From positions 248,001 through 312,000 of the forward strand of contig JAQGHU010000106.1 in assembly GCA_028291515.1 (NCBI GenBank): a DNA stretch of 64,000 bases, read 5' to 3'. Made by a program: the position numbers and the translations under genes. This DNA is from Schlesneria sp. GTDB taxonomy: Bacteria; Planctomycetota; Planctomycetia; Planctomycetales; Planctomycetaceae. Below, in pieces: positions 44,369 to 54,387 of the stretch. The notes under the pieces were generated by a model. The model was given only the letters and a program-made list of their open reading frames with translations. It did no database searches and was not told the origin of the DNA. How positions within the stretch are numbered: the stretch's first letter is position 1; each line of letters begins with the position of its first letter.

Positions 44369-44386
44369 GTGCCGCAGCATAGGCGG

Positions 44387-45475
44387 CTACTGCTTCGCCG
44401 CCCCAGCCTGCTCGACAACTCGTCCACGCGCTTTGAACGAGAGCGGTTGTGGGCGACCTGCGACCTTGACGATGAACTCTTCCTCGAACGCGCCGGTGAT
44501 GTCGGGAGCGGTGAACGTGATTGGCAACACATGAACCGGCTTGGCCGTCACAGTATCGAGCTTCACTTTGAAGGATTCGTCCTGGATCTTGGAACTCTCT
44601 TTTTTCTCGCGATAGAGTTCGTCGATCTTGATCGGCTTCTTTCCGCGAATGACCAGGTTCACTGGCTTGGATTGTCCTGGGGTCATCGTTCCGAACTGGA
44701 TGTCTGTGATCGCCACATCGGTTTCGATGGTCCCTTCGACCATAATTGAAACCTGAGGGTTATTCACGTCGTCTGTCATCAGGATGACTTGATCTCGCAA
44801 GACGCCCAACGGAGCCTGCGGTTTGAGCGAGAACAGCAATTCGTATTTGACCAGCCCATTCCCACGTCCCGCCTCACGCAGAGTCACGACGACGTTGGGA
44901 TTTGTCGCTTTGACCTGTGTCAATCGCCAGTCATCACGACCGGCATAGTTAACGTCGACTTTACGTTCGACTGAAGTCCCTTGATCGACCGTTCCGAAAT
45001 GGACAGCCCCGGGCGTAATCACCACGTCACGTCGGATGTACGCTGTCACAGGGAATTCAATCGTTGCGGATGAACTGTGAACGGGATCCAGCAACATCAC
45101 CTTCGCGTTGGATTTTCGTTCCCCATCGAATTGGATCGTGTTCAGGCGCAGTGTGATCACGCGCGTCTGTCCGCTGGGGATCACCAGCGGTAGCTGAGGG
45201 GGATTGGTCTTCATTTCGTCCCACGAAACGCAGCTGCAGCCTGTCGTCAGATTCGTGACCTGAATGTCTTCTTTATAGACATTCTTCACCTTCACTTGGA
45301 CCGCACTGTCGGCTCCTTTGGCAACAGAACCAAACTTGATGTCCGTCACCTCGAACATCTTGTTACCCCAATAGGGGTCCTGTCCGCTGGCGGCGCTCTG
45401 GAGGAGGCAAATCACCGTTCCGAACACCAGAGTCGGCAAATCCAGTCGCAATCGACTAGTGGATGGAAAGTACAT
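44387..45475 (-). CDS. DUF1573 domain exported protein
   Basis: A 362-residue protein with a signal peptide (about residues 10-30) and at least two immunoglobulin-like DUF1573 modules. The first contains the hallmark GCSCVSWDE after VTDIKFGSVAKG, and a second begins at VVITPGAVHFGTVDQG. The third repeat-like start is VAITDIQFGTMTPGQS. Such ASPM/Hydin-like beta domains are frequent in planctomycete exported proteins. ATG 45475 is chosen because it begins the signal peptide; the frame continues upstream without support. It converges on the BlaR1-type gene with only 18 bases between stops. Confidence 0.88.
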   Translation of the reverse strand: MYFPSTSRLRLDLPTLVFGTVICLLQSAASGQDPYWGNKMFEVTDIKFGSVAKGADSAVQVKVKNVYKEDIQVTNLTTGCSCVSWDEMKTNPPQLPLVIPSGQTRVITLRLNTIQFDGERKSNAKVMLLDPVHSSSATIEFPVTAYIRRDVVITPGAVHFGTVDQGTSVERKVDVNYAGRDDWRLTQVKATNPNVVVTLREAGRGNGLVKYELLFSLKPQAPLGVLRDQVILMTDDVNNPQVSIMVEGTIETDVAITDIQFGTMTPGQSKPVNLVIRGKKPIKIDELYREKKESSKIQDESFKVKLDTVTAKPVHVLPITFTAPDITGAFEEEFIVKVAGRPQPLSFKARGRVVEQAGAAKQ

Positions 45476-45570
45476 TATCCTGCCTCGCCTCCTGAACCGG
45501 GGGTCGCCAGATGCTCCGAGCCTTGTCGTTCCTGATCCCCGATCAATTCTATTGCGATTCAACCGTAGTC

Positions 45571-45590
45571 CCCTGCGATTATGCAGGGGC
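45571..45590 (-). repeat. Hairpin upstream of the DUF1573 gene
   Basis: CCCCTGC-GATTAT-GCAGGGG forms 7 perfect pairs about 96 bases before the DUF1573 start codon on the minus strand. It may be a leader hairpin, or a termination signal for the upstream TPR gene that points the same way; no T-run follows. Confidence 0.45.
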
Positions 45591-45729
45591 AGCACGGCCC
45601 AAGCCCTGTCTATCAGGCTTATTACGGTTTTTCAGCGGCCCGCCTCGCGCACATTAAGACGAATCGGTGAAAAAGTCAACGCGGGACAGTAGTTGCGACG
45701 CGTCCGCTCCTTGGAAAACACCGATGCGA

Positions 45730-47487
45730 TCAGCGCGTTCCAGGGTTTCCCGGCAGCTTGCCTGAAGAACGTTCCAGAGTCTGCTCCGAGTCGCCTGAAT
45801 CCGATGCCTCATCTAGATCGGACTTAATGGTGGTCCGGGAAACGGGCACGGTGATATCTGTGATCTCCGCCGAAGGCCCGGTTCGCAAGGAAAGCCGCAG
45901 GTCATTCTGCTCCAGGGCCGTCGCTCGATAGACCGGATAAGTTCGCGCTGCCAGTCCCAGATTACCCAACGTCTCACTCGATGAGATCGCCGTCCCGCCC
46001 GATTTCAGCGTCAGTTTCACCGGGGCCGCATTCGGATACTTAATCGTGACGGACAGGTCTCGATCATCGATCGCCGAATTCATGGGCCCGCCAAATTCGG
46101 CGATCCCGTCAAAGCTGACAAGCATCGAGTCGCGGCCTGGCGTGAATCGAGGGTTCGTGAACGTCTTCTCGCCAATGTGGAGTGCCACCTGAGCGTTCTG
46201 CAATTGCCAGCTTGGGCTGGCCGACAACAGGAAATCGTCCTTCCCGAAATTCAATCGAGGCGTCGCCTGCATCGTTACCTGAATCTGGTCAACAACCGGT
46301 TGAGGCGTCGCGGGCGACAGCTTCGCCGCACACAGAATGAGCTGTGGAACCGGGACATCTCGTACCCATTCCGGGTCCGTCAGACGCGCCGCCAGTTCGG
46401 GGCGATTATCGGTCTGATAGTACAAGCCCAGCAGTGCGACTCGACTCTGCGACTTCTCCAGTTTGTCGTCAATATTGCGCAGGATCGCCTCTTCGGCATC
46501 CTGAGGTCGATTGAACCGCTGTAGCACAGAAGCACACAGCAGGTTGGCTTCCCAGGCATCGGACGAACATGTCAACGCTTTCGCGGCAGACTCGGCCGCT
46601 CCAGGTTGCCCCAGGTACGCCAGGATATAGGCGCGATTTGCCAACCCTGCAGCCAGCATCTCGTCTTTGCGAAAGTGGCCCGTGCTGAGAGTCGCCAGTT
46701 TGTTGTAGGTCTCGGCCGAAGCAACGAATTGACCCAGGTTCTGCTGTGTCCGCGCGACGTAGTACCAGTACGGTGGATAGTATTCCTGGAACGATTCCAT
46801 CCGCTTCAGCATCCGCAGGCGAACAGTTGGATCAGGTTCGCGACAGGCTACTTCCAACTTCTCGAGATCGTCATTACGGATCAGCCAACGATCGGGAATC
46901 TGCTTGTTGCGGGCCATCTTCCATGACGTGTCGAGGAACTGGTTCGACTTCTCGACCACGCTGCTCATCAGCTTCTTATCAACCTGCCAACGATCCTGCT
47001 CCTTGGTGACCGTCTTATTGCGATGGTCCCACCAGCTACTGGCGCCGGTCTTCACTGCCGAGAAATACTGTTGAGTCGCCACTTCAGCCGCAATCTGGAA
47101 CGCATTGATCCCCAGATCGCGATTCAAGTTTCGATAGTATTGCTCCTGAATCGCTTCCTTCTCGCGATCGGCCATCTGCACGTGAGAGACTTCATCGAGC
47201 ACGCCCGAGTACAGCTTCATCACGTCTTCATCGGCGATGCCGTTCAGATCGAGGTGGTTCAGAATCTTATCGCGTTCTTCGACCATGACGCGCGTGGTCG
47301 GATAGCGACGAATGCGATACAGCGCAGCGCGGCTGTAGTTCAGCGCCACAGCGGCAGAGCGTCGTTCTTCGTCCGTGACTGGTCGCGCAGCAGCGGCTGG
47401 TTCAGCGGCGAACAAGCTGGCAACGTCACCAATAATCAAGCTGGCGAACAGCAGGAACTGGATGCTTCGATTCAATCGGTTTCTCAT
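45730..47487 (-). CDS. Exported TPR-type protein, unknown function
   Basis: A 585-residue protein with signal peptide MRNRLNRSIQFLLFASLIIG (cleavage near LFAAEP). A helical N-terminal half contains conserved-looking WQVDKKLMSSVVEKSNQFLD. A TPR-like region (about residues 225-360) has YYPPYWYYVARTQQNLGQFV, NRAYILAYLGQPGAAESAA and CASVLQRFNRPQDAEEAILR. A beta-rich C-terminal region follows (about 385-550). The tail is polar. I do not recognise a named family. The ATG is preceded by GAGG with acceptable spacing. It precedes the DUF1573 gene in the same direction but the 250-base gap suggests separate transcription. Confidence 0.82.
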   Translation of the reverse strand: MRNRLNRSIQFLLFASLIIGDVASLFAAEPAAAARPVTDEERRSAAVALNYSRAALYRIRRYPTTRVMVEERDKILNHLDLNGIADEDVMKLYSGVLDEVSHVQMADREKEAIQEQYYRNLNRDLGINAFQIAAEVATQQYFSAVKTGASSWWDHRNKTVTKEQDRWQVDKKLMSSVVEKSNQFLDTSWKMARNKQIPDRWLIRNDDLEKLEVACREPDPTVRLRMLKRMESFQEYYPPYWYYVARTQQNLGQFVASAETYNKLATLSTGHFRKDEMLAAGLANRAYILAYLGQPGAAESAAKALTCSSDAWEANLLCASVLQRFNRPQDAEEAILRNIDDKLEKSQSRVALLGLYYQTDNRPELAARLTDPEWVRDVPVPQLILCAAKLSPATPQPVVDQIQVTMQATPRLNFGKDDFLLSASPSWQLQNAQVALHIGEKTFTNPRFTPGRDSMLVSFDGIAEFGGPMNSAIDDRDLSVTIKYPNAAPVKLTLKSGGTAISSSETLGNLGLAARTYPVYRATALEQNDLRLSLRTGPSAEITDITVPVSRTTIKSDLDEASDSGDSEQTLERSSGKLPGNPGTR

Positions 47488-48019
47488 GGCAACCTCGTCT
47501 CCACGGGGCGGATAACTAACACGTCAGGCCCACAACCACCGGCAAGAATCAAAGTCGCAGAGGGGATCGCGATCAGATTCCAACTCGATGTCATGGGTGT
47601 GATCCCACGCGCCGTACCGTCGTAGCACGATTCCGAGGTGACATCCCGTCACCATCACACGACTCGTTGAAGCAGCACACGGGGTGCCACTTCCCCTCCA
47701 CGAGTCATGTAACAGAGGCGGGATTCGTCAAAGTGTTCGGTCTTCCAAGTCTACTCGGCAATTTCTGCCGAGCCTGAGGCGATCCGGTGGCTCGACCAGC
47801 GATTATCGCGACTCACGGCGAACGAACCGGTCGGCGAATGACACCGTGTCGCACCGGTCAGTCCGATTCGTGAAACAGATTCGATCAGGTAAACCCTGCG
47901 GGAACCGATTAGGATGCCGCAACGTCTTAAACGCATCGCCAAAGTCGGCGACTTGCCCCATTCTCGGGCCCGCCGATCGTTGCAAACCGCTGTTCTGCTC
48001 ACGCGTTAAGGAAAATCAC
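47488..48019. other. Divergent intergenic region
   Basis: About 530 bases between the leftward TPR gene and the rightward LCCL gene. The frame of the LCCL gene is open through much of it, but no sensible start with a ribosome site is present before 48020. No repeats or promoters were recognised. Confidence 0.45.
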
Positions 48020-48742
48020 ATGCGTAAGATCGCCGTCTGGGGAGCCCTGTTTGCGGTGCTGGGATTTGTCACAACGAGCTACAGCGAAGAATTCGGGCTC
48101 GAGTTCCGAGACCGCCCGCACAATCCCCGGATCGCCTCAATCAGGCCCATGATCACCGAAACCGTCACCGTAGTTGTTGCGTCACCCGAGCCACTTCCCG
48201 CCGACGCGCTCGCTTTGGTCACATCCTTCGACAGTGAATCCGCCACCATCCGCCAAAAGGCTGAGCAAGAAATACAAGCGAAACGCCAATCGCTGATCGT
48301 GACATTGCAAGCATTACAAGACGCGTACACGCGCGAGGCGAAGCTCGATGAAGCTGTCGCGATTCGTGATACAATTCGACAATTGAAGGTTTCACACCTG
48401 AAGCCCGCACCCGATCCTGGCAGCCTTTCTGAATACGCCAATCGCATCGGTGAGACGTTCTACTTCGACGTGACCGGCCAAGTCGGCTATTCCATCTGGG
48501 GTTCCGAGGTCTACACCGCCGACTCTCATCTTGCGACCGCCGCAGTTCACGCGGGCGTCCTGAAGGTCGGTCAACGCGGCATCGTGAAGGTGACGTTGAT
48601 CAAGTCCCCAGACACACATCGTGGTTCGACCGCGAACGGAGTCAGCAGTTCCAACTGGGGTAACTACGGGACCAGCTACACTGTCGAGCGTCCAAATTTC
48701 GACTCCATGCCGCCGCTGAGAACCAAACCAGCCACTCCATAG
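48020..48742 (+). CDS. Exported LCCL-domain protein
   Basis: A 240-residue protein with a signal peptide (MRKIAVWGALFAVLGFVTTS). A helical middle region follows (EQEIQAKRQSLIVTLQALQD, DEAVAIRDTIRQL), then a C-terminal LCCL-type domain with GETFYFDVTG, SIWGSEVYTADSHLATAAVH, AGVLKVGQRGIVKVTLI and HRGSTANGVSSSNWGNYGTS. LCCL domains bind glycans or lipids in some eukaryotic proteins; bacterial forms are mostly planctomycetal and uncharacterised. AAGGAA lies before ATG 48020. The frame is open to 47684 but the region has no start signal. Confidence 0.87.
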   Translation: MRKIAVWGALFAVLGFVTTSYSEEFGLEFRDRPHNPRIASIRPMITETVTVVVASPEPLPADALALVTSFDSESATIRQKAEQEIQAKRQSLIVTLQALQDAYTREAKLDEAVAIRDTIRQLKVSHLKPAPDPGSLSEYANRIGETFYFDVTGQVGYSIWGSEVYTADSHLATAAVHAGVLKVGQRGIVKVTLIKSPDTHRGSTANGVSSSNWGNYGTSYTVERPNFDSMPPLRTKPATP

Positions 48743-48785
48743 TCGAAGTGGTCGCCCCGTCTAGAATGACAGCAGAGGATTTCTG

Positions 48786-49028
48786 ATGAAACACCGCCTG
48801 CTGACGGCCGCAATCTCTGCAGTCTTGCTGTTCTTCTTCGCCGTCCCGCTCGGATTCATGTTGTACGGAGCGGGATCGGCGATCTCCGGGCTGCTCCTGC
48901 TCGGTGGCCTCATCGCCCTGCAAGCTCCGGCATTCTTTCTCTGCCAACGCTGCGGCTGGATTCCAACAGTCGAACGAGAAACGGGGAGTGCCAGTCCACG
49001 TCGCCCTCACTCGTCGAATGAAGCGTGA
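48786..49028 (+). CDS. Small membrane protein
   Basis: An 80-residue protein with two hydrophobic segments, ISAVLLFFFAVPLGFMLYGA and GLLLLGGLIALQAPAFFL, a CQRCG pair of cysteines after the second helix and a polar tail. AGAGGA lies eight bases before the ATG. No family is recognised. It starts 43 bases after the LCCL gene and may be co-transcribed. Confidence 0.65.
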   Translation: MKHRLLTAAISAVLLFFFAVPLGFMLYGAGSAISGLLLLGGLIALQAPAFFLCQRCGWIPTVERETGSASPRRPHSSNEA

Positions 49029-49035
49029 GAGTGAT

Positions 49036-49066
49036 CGTTTAACCGCTTGGGAAACGCTCCGCGCGA
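49036..49066. repeat. Dispersed repeat, copy 2
   Basis: CGTTTAACCGCTTGGGAAAC followed by GCTCCGCGCGA. It matches copy 1 (39036-39066) at 26 of 31 bases, in the same orientation, directly after the small membrane protein gene. Confidence 0.6.
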
Positions 49067-49288
49067 TACCCTGATTCACAACTCGGGTGTCACTTCCATC
49101 CGGCTCGAACCGCTCACGAACGGCGTTTTCGAAGCCGCTCTCCAAGAGCGAACTGAGAGTTGTGCTTCACCGACTTGACGGTAGGCTATACTCCATAAAC
49201 TCGCGACAGGTCGCCACCTTTTCGCGAAGAAACTTGCCCGCCCACAGACCTGCTTCCAAGGTCCTGCGGTCCTAGCAGAGTAGGAGTT

Positions 49289-52144
49289 ATGCCCGCGATC
49301 CCCTGTCCTATTGAACCGCTGAGAAGGCTGCAGTCGGAATTCAAACAATTAGTCGATGCTGAATGCGATCCCGATGTCGCCTTCATTACGCTTCGTAGGC
49401 CAGTAGGGGAGGGGGACGATAACGCTTCTGAAGATGTCCCTTTTGAACCGCACCGCACGTACCCAATGCGGCGATATGCAAACGAAATTCGACGGCGTGG
49501 ATTGTACGCCCGAGACTGGGGTTGGGAATTGAGCGGACGAGACGGCGATCCAAAAGCTTGGCGGACTCTAAATAAGAACGTTGGTGAAAACTGGTCAGAG
49601 CAAGTTGCAAGTTGGCACGTGCCGGACGAGTGCAAGACGATGCCGGGTTGCGAAAGATGGCAGATTGTATTCGCTTCCTCAGACAATTTTGCTCGTGTCG
49701 AGAAGCTTTGCGACCGAGCCGCGAAACTTATCTGGAGCGTCTATGAATCGCCAATTTTACAGTGGATTTTCGGCCCCAACCGTCCAAAGGAATCCAATCT
49801 TTGTCTCCTCGCGGGATTGTGGTGCGACGTTGTTTTGCACGTCGCAATTCAACGACTTCCAGGAGTGATGGTTGCAACGAATGTCTTCGCCGAAGATGAA
49901 ATGCTTCGGCGAATCCGTTGCATGCAGCCTGGCGATTGGACTAAACCGGCACAACCACCTGTATGGGTTGCTAAGGTCGATCATTTTTCAACTGCATCAA
50001 TCGATTGCATCGATGCCATAATTGCGAACTGGCCGGCTGAACAATTAAGACATGATCAAGGGCTTTCGAACATTCCTAATTACGACGTGGGGCCAGATGC
50101 CTCAATTGATGGTGCACCGACAAACGAATACATCGGTTTGCTATTCGAGGTGAACAATTGGTTGATCGTTTCGCGTTCTGCCCCGCCCCTCACTAAAGTC
50201 GATCTGTCCGAATTCGACGAGTTGCCAAACTGCAGAGAGGCATGTGAACAAGCGATTGTCGAATCCTACCGGAAGGACTTTAAGACCATTGCGAGACATC
50301 TCGTAGCGGAATTCAAGAAGCGAGATCTTCCACTCTCTGAACGAGTCATCAATTCCGACAATGCAAAGTCAAACCTCAGTGACTGGAAACATGAACAGTT
50401 CAGATTGGCTGCACTCCTCGGACCTTGCTGCCGTCAACTCCAAGACGCGATGTTCGCGAGCGGAGAACTGATAGTTGGCTGGGAACCAGATTCGGAATTC
50501 AGTTTTCCGAAGAGGCCGATTCGAAATGTCAGTGATTTGACGGTGCATCTCAGCGAACTACTGACGGCATTGAGAGAACACTTGTCGGAACGGACGCCTG
50601 CTGAGGAGATCTTGAAGGATATTCAGTTGGAACTTCGGAACGCTCGGCGTTCGTTGAATACTTGGAGGATTCCTCTTCCGCCGAACTTCGATGATGCAGT
50701 ATCCGAGATCTTCGAATCGGAACGGCAGTTGGAAGTGCTTCTAGATCGGTTGAGCAAAAATGCGCCCGAGTTGTCGCTGTCGTCTGAATCATCCAACGAG
50801 TTGGCTGTTCTGATGAATACGCTCCGAAAGATTGCGAGTGCTATCGGAGGGATCGGGCGCGTCGGAGACAGTGCGAAGCAACTCTCACTCGACGCGTTAG
50901 GCACGGAACACAGCTCCCACAATCGCCTAACATTGCAGAAGCTGTACACGCAGCTGGCAAAGTCACGGGGGCATCGAGATGAGTTGACACTGTTGCTCGG
51001 GGATACGCTCGGCCAGTTGGGTGAATTGGCAGCTGGAGCAACCAAGGCAAGGTCTGAGGAATACCGTCAACGACTGTTGGAGCTGGCAGAGAGGTGGAAG
51101 GCAATTTTGAGTGGTCCGTCATTTAGCCACTTCAAAATCATCGCGCCCGATTTGATTGCCGACCCGAAAGTGATCCTTGAGCAGTCGCGAGTTGTACAAA
51201 TGTACTTTTCGAACGGGGCAGAATCCTTACGGGAGCGACTTGTCTGCGACTTGTACCCTTGTGCGAAAGATGCATTTCCCGACTCTATGGCTCGGGCGGT
51301 CGCAGGTGCGATTTGGAGGCGGCAGATTGTGGGTCCGGGTGTGGACAGCATTCGTCGCACCTACTGCCCGACTGATGAACAGCTGAAGTCCTTGGAGGAA
51401 ATTAATGGCGTCTGGGAATCTGCACTGCAAAGGCTCGTCGTGGATGCGGGATGCCGAGCGAGCGACGTGGAGCAGATGGATGCTTCCGAGATTCTGCGGC
51501 GGCTGGCAACTCTCCACTCCATGCAAATGGTTGGCGGAGAAATCGAGACGAACGAATTGCCGGCTGCTTCAACCACTTTCGTCTTCCGTCTTAACGGTGA
51601 CGGGTATTTCATATGTGGGTGTATCAACGGCCAAACCGAATCAGGGAACTTCAGCTCGGCAACTGGAAAAGGGCTATCTGTACTCTTCCGACTCGTTCAA
51701 TCACCGGGCACTCCTGTATCGATGTTGGAACTCGACGCTGGGCCGGGAACAGTGAGAGCGCATGGTGATAGGAGGAGTCGCCAAGAGGTAGCTGACGCAA
51801 TGTCACTCAAGCAAATTGCCGCAAAACGGAAGCAGCTTAAGATTGACATTGAAGCTGCTGATTCTGAACTGTTGCGAAGCGAGCTTGAATCCGAGCTGAG
51901 GGATTTGGAAAGGCATGCCATTAAAATGCAGGGACTGAAGGGGAAGTCCCGCGATCTCAACAATCCAAATGACATTCTCCGGTCGAAACTTCACAAGCAA
52001 CTAAGCCGTGTCTACAACAAACTCCAAATACTAATGCCAACACTCGCCAATCACTTTCGTTTGAGTTGTAGGGCAACCAATGGAGATAGCTTTGTTTATG
52101 CTCCTGCTGCCTTGGAAATCATTTGGGAGACGGCTTCCAAGTAG
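49289..52144 (+). CDS. Large protein of unknown function with a C-terminal regulator-type module
   Basis: A 951-residue protein with no signal peptide or membrane helix. Residues 1-330 are an unrecognised globular region with many Trp residues (HVPDECKTMPGCERWQIVFA, LAGLWCDVVLHVAIQRLPGV). The middle (about 400-680) is helical, probably coiled coil (TPAEEILKDIQLELRNARRS). The last 190 residues (about 760-951) follow an order I recall from C-terminal modules of large actinobacterial and planctomycete regulators: FVFRLNGDGYFICG, GKGLSVLFRLVQSPGTPVSM, a charged helix with LKIDIEAADSELLRSELESE, GLKGKSRDLNNPND, and a closing FVYAPAALEIIWE. By eye its GC content and codon choice are lower in G/C than the neighbours. 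TATACT at 49187-49192 is a possible -10. The ATG has AGGAG only two bases away. A small winged-helix-like gene follows. Confidence 0.85.
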   Translation: MPAIPCPIEPLRRLQSEFKQLVDAECDPDVAFITLRRPVGEGDDNASEDVPFEPHRTYPMRRYANEIRRRGLYARDWGWELSGRDGDPKAWRTLNKNVGENWSEQVASWHVPDECKTMPGCERWQIVFASSDNFARVEKLCDRAAKLIWSVYESPILQWIFGPNRPKESNLCLLAGLWCDVVLHVAIQRLPGVMVATNVFAEDEMLRRIRCMQPGDWTKPAQPPVWVAKVDHFSTASIDCIDAIIANWPAEQLRHDQGLSNIPNYDVGPDASIDGAPTNEYIGLLFEVNNWLIVSRSAPPLTKVDLSEFDELPNCREACEQAIVESYRKDFKTIARHLVAEFKKRDLPLSERVINSDNAKSNLSDWKHEQFRLAALLGPCCRQLQDAMFASGELIVGWEPDSEFSFPKRPIRNVSDLTVHLSELLTALREHLSERTPAEEILKDIQLELRNARRSLNTWRIPLPPNFDDAVSEIFESERQLEVLLDRLSKNAPELSLSSESSNELAVLMNTLRKIASAIGGIGRVGDSAKQLSLDALGTEHSSHNRLTLQKLYTQLAKSRGHRDELTLLLGDTLGQLGELAAGATKARSEEYRQRLLELAERWKAILSGPSFSHFKIIAPDLIADPKVILEQSRVVQMYFSNGAESLRERLVCDLYPCAKDAFPDSMARAVAGAIWRRQIVGPGVDSIRRTYCPTDEQLKSLEEINGVWESALQRLVVDAGCRASDVEQMDASEILRRLATLHSMQMVGGEIETNELPAASTTFVFRLNGDGYFICGCINGQTESGNFSSATGKGLSVLFRLVQSPGTPVSMLELDAGPGTVRAHGDRRSRQEVADAMSLKQIAAKRKQLKIDIEAADSELLRSELESELRDLERHAIKMQGLKGKSRDLNNPNDILRSKLHKQLSRVYNKLQILMPTLANHFRLSCRATNGDSFVYAPAALEIIWETASK

Positions 52145-52192
52145 TTCCGCGATTTGTTCCGTGAGTCGGAACTAAGTTCCGCACTACGGAAC
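52144..52192 (+). promoter_or_regulatory. Tandem palindromic operator candidate GTTCCG-N5-CGGAAC
   Basis: A half site GTTCCG (52144-52149) is followed by two complete palindromes, GTTCCG-TGAGT-CGGAAC (52156-52172) and GTTCCG-CACTA-CGGAAC (52176-52192). The complete sites are 20 bases apart, two helical turns, so both face the same side of DNA. They start in the stop codon of the 951-residue gene and lie 100-150 bases before the next gene, whose product could be the binding protein. Confidence 0.7.
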
Positions 52193-52294
52193 GCCATATC
52201 CAGCGAATGGTGAGCAACACTGGTAGTTGCCGCCGAACGACAAATGTTCCACTGGAGTATGTGCAATGCTTGAAAATGTCAGGAGGGATTTCTG

Positions 52295-52633
52295 ATGAAG
52301 AGAATCCCACAATCCCAAGTCGAGCAGGCTGAACTGAAGTTCCTCGAAAAACTTCGGAAGCATGGCGAAGTCACGACAGACGTCATTCCCGATGACCTCG
52401 CCATCAAGTATCCAGACAACGGTAATTGGGTTGGCTCGATTCCACGTCGTCTGCTGGATGACGAGTTAATCGTCGAGGTGGCATGCGTCCGGTCAAACCG
52501 GCTGAGACGTCACGGAGGTAGGATCGGGCTGTACGCCGCATTGAATGTGGCCGCAATCGACGGGCGAATCGCCTTGCTGAGGTCACGGCTCAATTTGGAC
52601 GAATCGAGTGGACTCGATTGGTCCCGTGCTTGA
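52295..52633 (+). CDS. Small winged-helix-like protein
   Basis: A 112-residue protein, basic and helical at the start (QVEQAELKFLEKLRKHGEVT), with PDDLAIKYPDNGNWVGSIPRRLLDDELIVE in two pieces resembling helix, turn, recognition helix and wing of a DNA-binding domain. I cannot name a family. AGGAGGG lies eight bases before the ATG, one of the strongest ribosome sites in the window. It follows the 951-residue gene by 150 bases that contain the palindromic operator candidates. By eye it shares the lower-GC look of that gene, which suggests both arrived together. Confidence 0.75.
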   Translation: MKRIPQSQVEQAELKFLEKLRKHGEVTTDVIPDDLAIKYPDNGNWVGSIPRRLLDDELIVEVACVRSNRLRRHGGRIGLYAALNVAAIDGRIALLRSRLNLDESSGLDWSRA

Positions 52634-52687
52634 AACGATTGCCGCTGTGGTTAGCACCAGTTCATTACCCCTCACTCGTCAAACGAA

Positions 52688-52723
52688 AACAGCCCGCAGG
52701 TCAAACCTGCGGGCTGTTCTTTT
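52688..52723. terminator. Bidirectional terminator between the winged-helix-like gene and groEL
   Basis: AACAGCCCGCAGGT-CAA-ACCTGCGGGCTGTT is a perfect 14-bp stem. Rightwards it is followed by CTTTTC and leftwards by TTTTCGTTT, so it can stop both convergent transcripts. Confidence 0.93.
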
Positions 52724-52770
52724 CGAGCGCGTTCTGTTCGGTCAATCGAGGGGAAAGACCGGACTGGCGA

Positions 52771-54387
52771 TTAGTACATGTCGTGGTCGCCGCCACCCTT
52801 CTTAGGGCCATCGTCTTTTGGCTTCTCGGCGATCAAAGCATCGCTGGTCAGCAACAAGGTCGACACGCTGGCAGCGTTCTGCAGGGCGCTTCGGGTAACC
52901 TTGCAAGGATCGATGATACCGGCCTTGACCAGGTCTTCGTATTCGCCGGTCGCAGCGTTGTAACCGAAGTTACCCTTCTGCTCGGAAACCTTTTCACAGA
53001 TCACAGCACCGTCGATACCGGCGTTGTTGGCGATCTGGGTCAAAGGAGCTCGGCAAGCACGCACGATGATGTTGTAACCGGTCGTCTCGTCTTCGTTCAA
53101 ACCGCTTGGCTTGAGGTCGAGAGACGCACGCAGCAGGGCCACGCCACCACCTGGCAGGATACCTTCTTCGACGGCAGCGCGAGTTGCGTGCAACGCATCT
53201 TCAACGCGAGCCTTCTTTTCTTTCATTTCGCTTTCGGTCGCGGCACCGACGTTAACCTGAGCGACTCCGCCCGACAACTTGGCAACGCGTTCTTCCAGCT
53301 TTTCACGATCGTAGTCGCTGCTCGAATTGGCCAGCTCACGACGGATTTGCTCGATCCGCGACTTGATGTCGGCGGTCTTGCCCAAGCCTTCGATGATCGT
53401 GGTGTTGTCCTTGTCGATCACGATCCGCTTGGCGCGGCCGAGGTCCGACAATTGAACGTTTTCGAGTTGGATGCCCAGGTCTTCGAAAATGGCTTGGCCA
53501 CCGACCATGATTGCCAAGTCTTGCAGCATCGCCTTGCGACGATCGCCGTAACCAGGAGCCTTCACGGCGGAAATCTTGAACGTGCCACGCAGCTTGTTGA
53601 TCACGAGCGTTGCGAGGGCTTCGCCTTCGACTTCTTCGGCGACGATCAACAGTGGCTTGCCGCTGTTGACGACCTTTTCCAGGACTGGAACCAGGTCCTT
53701 GATGTTGCTGATCTTCTTTTCGTGGATCAGAACGTAAGCGTCTTCCAGCACGCATTCCATCGACTGTGGATCGGTGACGAAGTAAGGCGACAGGTAGCCG
53801 CGATCGAACTGCATCCCTTCGACCACTTCGAAGGTGGTCGTCAGCGACTTGCCTTCTTCGACGGTGATGACGCCGTCTTTACCGACTTGTTCCATCGCGT
53901 CAGCGAGGATGTTGCCGATTTCGGTGTCGCCGTTGGCGGCAACAGTACCGACTTGAGCGATCGCCTTCTTGTTCTTGCATTCGACGGCGGCGGCCTTCAG
54001 CTTGGCAGTGATCTGCTCAACAGCCTTGTCCATGCCGCGCTTCATGTCGATCGGATTCACACCGGCGACAACAGCCTTCAGGCCTTCGACGTAGATCGCT
54101 TCGGCGAGAACGGTTGCGGTGGTGGTTCCGTCACCGGCGGTATCGGAAGTCTTGCTGGCGACTTCACGAACCATGCGGGCACCCATGTCTTCGAACTTAT
54201 CTGGTAGTTCGATTTCACGAGCAACAGTGACACCGTCCTTGGTGACGGTTGGTGAGCCAAAGCTCTTTTCGATGATGACGTTGCGACCGCGGGGGCCGAG
54301 CGTCACGCGAACTGCACGCGCCAGCTTCTGAACGCCGCGCTTCATCGCTTCCTGCGCTTCTTGATCGAAGGCGATAATCTTGGGCAT
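52771..54387 (-). CDS. groL: GroEL chaperonin
   Basis: A 538-residue type I chaperonin subunit of normal length. It keeps the ATP pocket blocks [15 protein letters not shown] and [15 protein letters not shown], the equatorial [16 protein letters not shown] and the apical segment around [20 protein letters not shown]. The usual repetitive GGM C-terminal tail is replaced by GGGDHDMY. GroEL with GroES folds proteins in the cytoplasm in an ATP-driven cage. The groES gene is 82 bases upstream, an ordinary groESL operon. The operon ends at a strong bidirectional terminator. Confidence 0.98.

Follow-up and report, generated by a model that had tools for sequence, protein, structure and literature searches.

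Two palindromes in tandem lie behind a candidate regulator gene

The DNA analysed here is a stretch of 64,000 nt from the planctomycete Schlesneria sp. (contig JAQGHU010000106.1, positions 248,001 to 312,000), referred to as the window and numbered from its first base. Close to groEL it carries a gene for a protein of 951 amino acids (aa), directly followed by two 17-bp palindromes in tandem, and a gene for a 112-aa protein further downstream. These palindromes and their probable regulator are the subject of this work. The features of the locus are:

48945..52681, no strand: variable segment with the 951-aa and 112-aa genes, without a match in the closest species (G012)
49289..52144, plus strand: 951-aa gene, encoding a candidate regulator; no homologues were detected for the N-terminal part
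51572..52141, plus strand: C-terminal domain of the 951-aa gene, array-associated, present in 50 of 397 genomes of the class (own included)
52144..52149, plus strand: extra half site GTTCCG, overlapping the stop codon of the 951-aa frame
52156..52172, no strand: first 17-bp palindrome, GTTCCGTGAGTCGGAAC, from the palindrome and array scans
52176..52192, no strand: second 17-bp palindrome, GTTCCGCACTACGGAAC, from the same scans
52193..52265, plus strand: structured leader, a predicted three-way junction whose 3' strand contains CTGGAGT, the ribosome-site-like sequence of the next frame
52266..52295, plus strand: 9-codon frame MLENVRRDF*, its stop overlapping the ATG of the 112-aa gene
52295..52633, plus strand: 112-aa gene, predicted winged helix with a C-terminal helix, of a family from mobile-element replication modules
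52688..52718, no strand: probable terminator of groEL (opposite strand), a hairpin whose arms are 14 bp long, located between groEL and the 112-aa gene; G012 has a similar hairpin

Both palindromes have the form GTTCCG-N5-CGGAAC. They are 20 bp apart from start to start with 3 bp in between, and the first base of the half site is the last base of the TAG stop codon (52142-52144) of the 951-aa frame. An earlier note on this DNA had described two identical-arm palindromes at this distance plus a half site, and its description, including the spacing of two helical turns, is accurate. Only 0.01 copies of GTTCCG-N5-CGGAAC are expected per shuffle, and two copies arose in none of 100 shuffles. Five copies of one 6-mer lie inside 50 bp of the window, which none of 20 shuffled windows reproduced, and tandem palindromes with the same arms were found once in the window compared to 0 of 20 shuffled windows. 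The tandem palindromes are real, beyond chance.

The exact N5 palindrome has no second site in the whole genome (8.59 Mb) and is therefore neither a dispersed repeat, such as those of the repetitive extragenic palindromic type, nor a regulon motif in this genome. Occurrence at many unrelated sites, which the earlier note held to speak against its own proposal, was thus not observed. Palindromes of GTTCCG and CGGAAC with gaps of 0-20 numbered 37 in the whole genome versus 25 for a reversed control pattern. GTTCCG clusters detected in 11 of 59 genomes (own included) resembled mostly chance or coding DNA on inspection and were dropped. In another genome, two copies of CGGAAC-N3-GTTCCG separate a reductase-like gene from a divergent, TetR-looking gene, both judged by eye (L028; G016, contig C197, 3454-3490).

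Tandem arrays recur behind genes sharing the C-terminal domain

The detected relatives of the 951-aa protein, in 6 of 392 genomes (own included), match its C-terminal part only. Behind the stop codons of such relatives we found the same architecture of 17 bp, 3 bp and 17 bp in other letters, with GTTACG arms in G045, GCTAC arms in G248 and GTAGC/GTTAC arms in G414; the remaining two relatives of the first domain search, G115 and G079, have no array. A scan for this architecture on both strands of 627 kb of fetched, partly overlapping DNA returned only these three loci and copies of the window, and five rounds of shuffled loci returned none.

A four-row profile of the C-terminal domain extended the family to 50 of 397 genomes of the class and 59 places (own included), of which 55 were fetched and four weak partial matches were left out. 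Arrays were scanned for between -30 and +130 of the stop codon. The arms were 5 nt long, each palindrome was allowed a single mismatch, and the arms had to agree in 8 or more of 10 positions. By these criteria an array lies near the stop codon in 28 of the 55 domain loci, from 19 genera, and at 0 of 828 ends of other frames, the latter being mechanically called frames, 150 codons or longer and taken from both strands of the other loci; many of these frames are probably not genes, and some of the loci overlap. The period of the array is 20 in 15 loci and 21 in 13, with none at 17-19 or 22-30, and palindrome length in the scan peaks at 17. The arm letters vary around the consensus GCTACRCGAAAAGTAGC-N3/4-GCTACGCCGGAAGTAGC (GCTAC...GTAGC). 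An earlier scan over several lengths had given 15 of 55 loci versus 1 of 805 control ends; in its second control 3 of 329 segments matched, all of them displaced arrays of L175, L177 and L184.

A covariance model built from 24 arrays matched 33 of the 55 loci at E<=0.01, of which 24 are the training rows, one has the same letters as a training row and eight are new. In 40 whole genomes, with at most 150 candidates scored per genome and training rows matching by construction, the model gave 27 places, all but one of which lie behind a domain gene. Of the 27 array genomes it detected 24, missing G642, G789 and G748, and the 13 genomes from the same genera that lack a domain match gave no hit; whole genomes hold about one array per domain gene. 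The remaining place is marginal (L233; G753, contig C11, 9139-9174; E 0.041). In the 3 kb surrounding it no domain gene was found, and it is either a distant site or due to chance. Counts of paired positions in the array alignment are circular, since rows had been chosen for palindromy, and were not used as evidence. The array pattern had no match in viral contigs. Altogether, the array co-occurs with genes encoding the C-terminal domain more than with other frames.

The C-terminal domain is joined to variable N-terminal halves

No homologue of the 951-aa protein was found in genome contigs, a search from which records near its own genome may have been left out, and the C-terminal domain of G045 found no homologue in phage records. 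No model of Pfam or NCBIfam matches the C-terminal domain. Comparison with PDB profiles gave no credible relative; the match to the best, Cas10 (E 1.1e-3), is confined to profile positions 66-119. By eye, the domain resembles winged helices of the OmpR/PhoB or SARP type, with a strand-rich start, helices and a G...Y motif that could end it as a wing hairpin. It differs from them in a long coiled-coil insertion and in the lack of a profile or fold match. The likeness of its ends to an OmpR/PhoB-like winged helix around the insertion serves as a lead. In the literature, as far as it was available to us, no paper was recognised as dealing with this domain or the array.

The N-terminal halves are variable. 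Among 52 domain proteins scanned, many of them cut by locus ends, six match QatC, which is QueC-like and belongs to the Qat anti-phage system, and TPR models are matched by single members; neither kind of match is seen in the 951-aa protein itself. In L163, L164, L167 and L179 a QatC-like N-terminal half is fused to the C-terminal domain and a tandem array follows the gene. Four such members score 179.7-190.9 bits, below the curated NCBIfam cut-off of 280, and unlike QatC they carry the extra C-terminal domain.

The array keeps its place ahead of the next conserved gene

A conserved downstream frame could be named in 24 of the 28 array loci, and the best-supported one lies on the same strand in all 24. 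Furthermore, seven loci (L162, L169, L170, L175, L177, L184, L195) have an extra frame between the domain gene and the array, L175, L177 and L184 being near-identical and the array of L170 reaching only E 0.012. In these seven the array lies 686-937 nt past the stop codon of the domain gene, directly before the next conserved frame. Since the array stays ahead of that frame despite the extra one, an operator of the next operon fits better than an element of the 3'-end. Among 77 downstream frames, chosen from 137 over all 55 loci, we found matches to Sigma70_r2 (19), HTH_17 (2), HTH_3 (2), Gp49 (2), Toprim_2 (2), AAA_25 (1) and DUF3987 (1), and a small unnamed family recurs in about ten loci.

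These data argue that the tandem palindromes are probably the DNA operator of a mobile-element control module, whose regulator would be the protein of the 951-aa type encoded upstream. The earlier note had instead assigned them to the 112-aa protein. We reassign the partner because the architecture follows the C-terminal-domain family (28 of 55 loci versus 0 of 828 ends). The note's idea of an undescribed regulator-operator pair is thereby partly supported: a tandem site does stand beside a regulator-like gene of no nameable family, which is of the 951-aa and not the 112-aa type.

Several observations weigh against this interpretation. The scan criteria were chosen after viewing an earlier look at the loci. 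At domain-adjacent loci the arrays lie between -21 and +52 of the stop codon, a position that could also mean a function at the 3'-end. By the main scan 27 of the 55 domain loci are without an adjacent array, and 15 of 55 by all scans. The window itself scores 32.3 bits with the array model, among the weaker arrays, and a scan for sigma-70-type promoters across 51900-52800 found no promoter-like site, where 0.7 were expected by chance and other promoter types were not covered. An integrase was matched by only 1 of the 77 downstream frames, though most flanks reach no further than 1.5-2.3 kb. Finally, the AlphaFold model of the C-terminal domain has a mean predicted local distance difference test (pLDDT) score of 69, and its Foldseek list, with no hit at E<=0.001, was discarded.

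A folded leader follows the array

The sequence between the array and the next start codon is structured. Over 78 bases the leader of the window is 81% identical to that of G414; both are predicted to fold into the same three-way junction, with one compensatory pair, and the ATG of the 9-codon frame aligns with that of the next frame in G414, which is DUF3987-like by eye. In the window the Shine-Dalgarno (SD) sequence is paired with a probability of 0.84, a value reached by none of 60 shuffles. Eleven of the 28 array loci were put through the same test, for which start codon and SD sequence were chosen by eye: on average the ribosome site pairs with distant upstream bases with a probability of 0.61, compared to 0.22 in shuffles. 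Pairing exceeded at least 58 of 60 shuffles in six of these leaders (L152, L154, L155, L156, L157, L193) and was weak or absent in five (L172, L179, L182, L196, L197). As a widespread RNA the leader was rejected, the model R1 being clear in the window and G414 only; five further genomes matched at E 0.03-0.08, which we regard as noise. A DNA core pattern of the leader matched two contigs and had no match in viral contigs. In G447, 33 bp (L046, 1501-1533) are 91% identical to window positions 52214-52246 and lie beside clustered GGCAAC/GTTGCC palindromes.

Given this leader, the palindromes might themselves be hairpins of the transcript, which together with the three-way junction would form either the 3'-end of the regulator transcript or a leader or attenuator for the gene that follows. 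The array stretch of the window does fold as one long hairpin, with z-scores of -3.8 as RNA and -4.4 as DNA, the deviating arm pairs in G414 and G248 are G-U in the sense strand, and the absence of a promoter-like site in the simple scan would suit such an element. However, the 20 non-Watson-Crick arm pairs over the 28 arrays comprise 5 G-U, 2 C-A and 13 others, and RNA hairpins are not favoured because this shows no clear G-U bias. Moreover, the strict period of 20/21 bp suits DNA helix geometry, and no intrinsic terminator, that is a hairpin with a T run, is present at 52144-52200. We therefore consider an RNA element rather unlikely. Rfam families gave no match for 52144-52294 at E<=5.

An iteron-like site, serving as replication origin of a mobile element or bound by its initiator, would agree with the replication-type genes among the downstream frames (Toprim_2 in two of the 77, AAA_25 and DUF3987 in one each) and with the presence of about one array per domain gene. 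Against it, the array has two units only, the array-associated protein matches no known Rep, and the commonest named downstream genes encode sigma factors; this explanation appears improbable.

The 112-aa protein is an unlikely partner of the palindromes

The 112-aa gene has a near-perfect ribosome binding site, as the earlier note had stated, with AGGAGG ending 8 nt upstream of the ATG. The likewise proposed winged-helix character of its product agrees with the AlphaFold model, which predicts a winged helix with a C-terminal helix (pLDDT 88.7). None of the models of Pfam, PADLOC, PHROGs or NCBIfam matches the protein. Its best solved fold in Foldseek is the Bacillus replication terminator protein (1f4k, E 4.3e-3, TM score 0.61), which like the MarR and PadR folds among the best PDB hits combines a winged helix with a C-terminal helix. 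It is set apart from these proteins by the lack of any PDB hit at E<=1e-3 and by homologues located near primase genes. Among viral structure models, uncharacterised phage proteins were matched at about E 7e-4. The protein is thus a predicted winged helix, with weak Foldseek E-values.

Homologues were found in 2 of 59 genomes by single-sequence search and in 32 of 397 genomes of the class by a three-row profile (own counted in both), and none in viral contigs. The profile gave 37 matches besides the window, for which 30 loci were fetched. In 60 neighbouring frames, out of 82 listed, DNA_primase_S (7), Prim-Pol (6), DUF3987 (3) and HTH_17 (1) were matched. As these primase, DUF3987 and HTH_17 genes stand out as neighbours, we place the family in mobile-element replication modules. 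A search for structured upstream regions in 25 family loci gave a mean z-score of about -1, with values below -2.5 in four.

According to the earlier note, this protein binds the palindromes and represses its own gene. Its predicted fold and nearest solved structure would fit this role, and the array ends 102 bp ahead of its ATG. Nevertheless, the co-occurrence of palindrome and homologues that the note had suggested checking is confined to the window: in none of the 30 loci fetched for homologues is the palindrome close to the gene, even when up to 2 mismatches are allowed; three weak matches were located 527-953 nt upstream. Concordantly, the array model matched the window alone among 34 sources and none of 33 homologue loci (31 distinct places), and elsewhere arrays follow the C-terminal-domain gene. 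Self-repression by the 112-aa protein is hence very unlikely. Two homologues were seen by eye to have different regulator-like genes upstream and other clusters of half sites at the same place, ACYGTTT several times in L004 (1915-2240, minus strand) and CGAATCAAAT three times in L005 (1900-2200, minus strand); in both an apparent stem precedes an excisionase-like start.

Chance or a dispersed palindromic repeat can be dismissed, for although 17-mers with 6 pairs often occur singly (30 in the window), the tandem same-arm arrangement, its single genomic copy and its association with domain genes leave next to no room for either.

The two genes occupy a variable segment beside groEL

The closest species, G012, matches window positions 44383-48944 and 52682-52773 on two contigs, and the 3.7 kb in between are unmatched. 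Because both flanks are matched and the DNA between them is not, we regard the 951-aa and 112-aa genes as a variable segment beside groEL. GC content is 0.49-0.56 in 500-base windows across 49250-52750 and mostly 0.54-0.59 in the surroundings. An empty site was sought in seven stretches of genus relatives, none of which matches the window left of groEL in DNA; their one protein match is weak and falls on a different gene, and the G012 sequence is interrupted by contig ends at the locus. These ends facing the locus (end of L149, start of L150) look like a group II intron. The copy in the window is likely a shortened mobile element, because the 112-aa gene alone is left of a replication module.

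A model for the control module

In the proposed operator model, a regulator of the 951-aa type, with a variable N-terminal part and the common C-terminal domain, would be encoded just upstream of its operator. The C-terminal domain may bind the two 17-bp sites as dimers on the same face of the helix, and the occupied operator would control the promoter of the next co-directional operon, by repression or activation. In relatives this operon would begin with a gene for a sigma factor, an excisionase-like (HTH_17) protein, a replication protein or an unnamed small protein, and in part of the family the folded leader behind the operator may also hide the first gene's ribosome site. The copy in the window would have been reduced to the regulator, operator, leader, 9-codon frame and 112-aa winged-helix gene. 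The geometry of the array, its association with the domain gene, its position and its co-direction with the downstream frame are direct observations; that DNA is bound, that the C-terminal domain is the part that binds it, that it does so as a dimer, in which direction control runs and that the copy in the window is shortened we infer.

The order of regulator gene, operator sites and excision or replication operon is also that of prophage regulators and regulators of integrative and conjugative elements of the CI, ImmR and SetR type. The present loci differ from these in that regulator and operon are co-directional, the C-terminal domain matches no described DNA-binding family and the palindromes are strictly tandem 17-bp units. 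More tentatively, the loci could represent an undescribed class of planctomycete mobile-element switches, in which a common C-terminal DNA-binding domain would be combined with exchangeable sensor halves (QatC-like, TPR or of no known kind), a tandem 17-bp, two-turn operator with locus-specific letters and a leader hiding the ribosome site, so that a defence-like sensor would time excision and replication.

If the operator model holds, it would offer a handle on the switching of a set of planctomycete mobile elements, and would provide a regulator domain that is absent from the searched family libraries and has a site recognisable by its geometry alone. Moreover, proteins with a QatC-like half would be tied to a control site, and because each sensor comes with its own operator, what these sensors sense would become testable.

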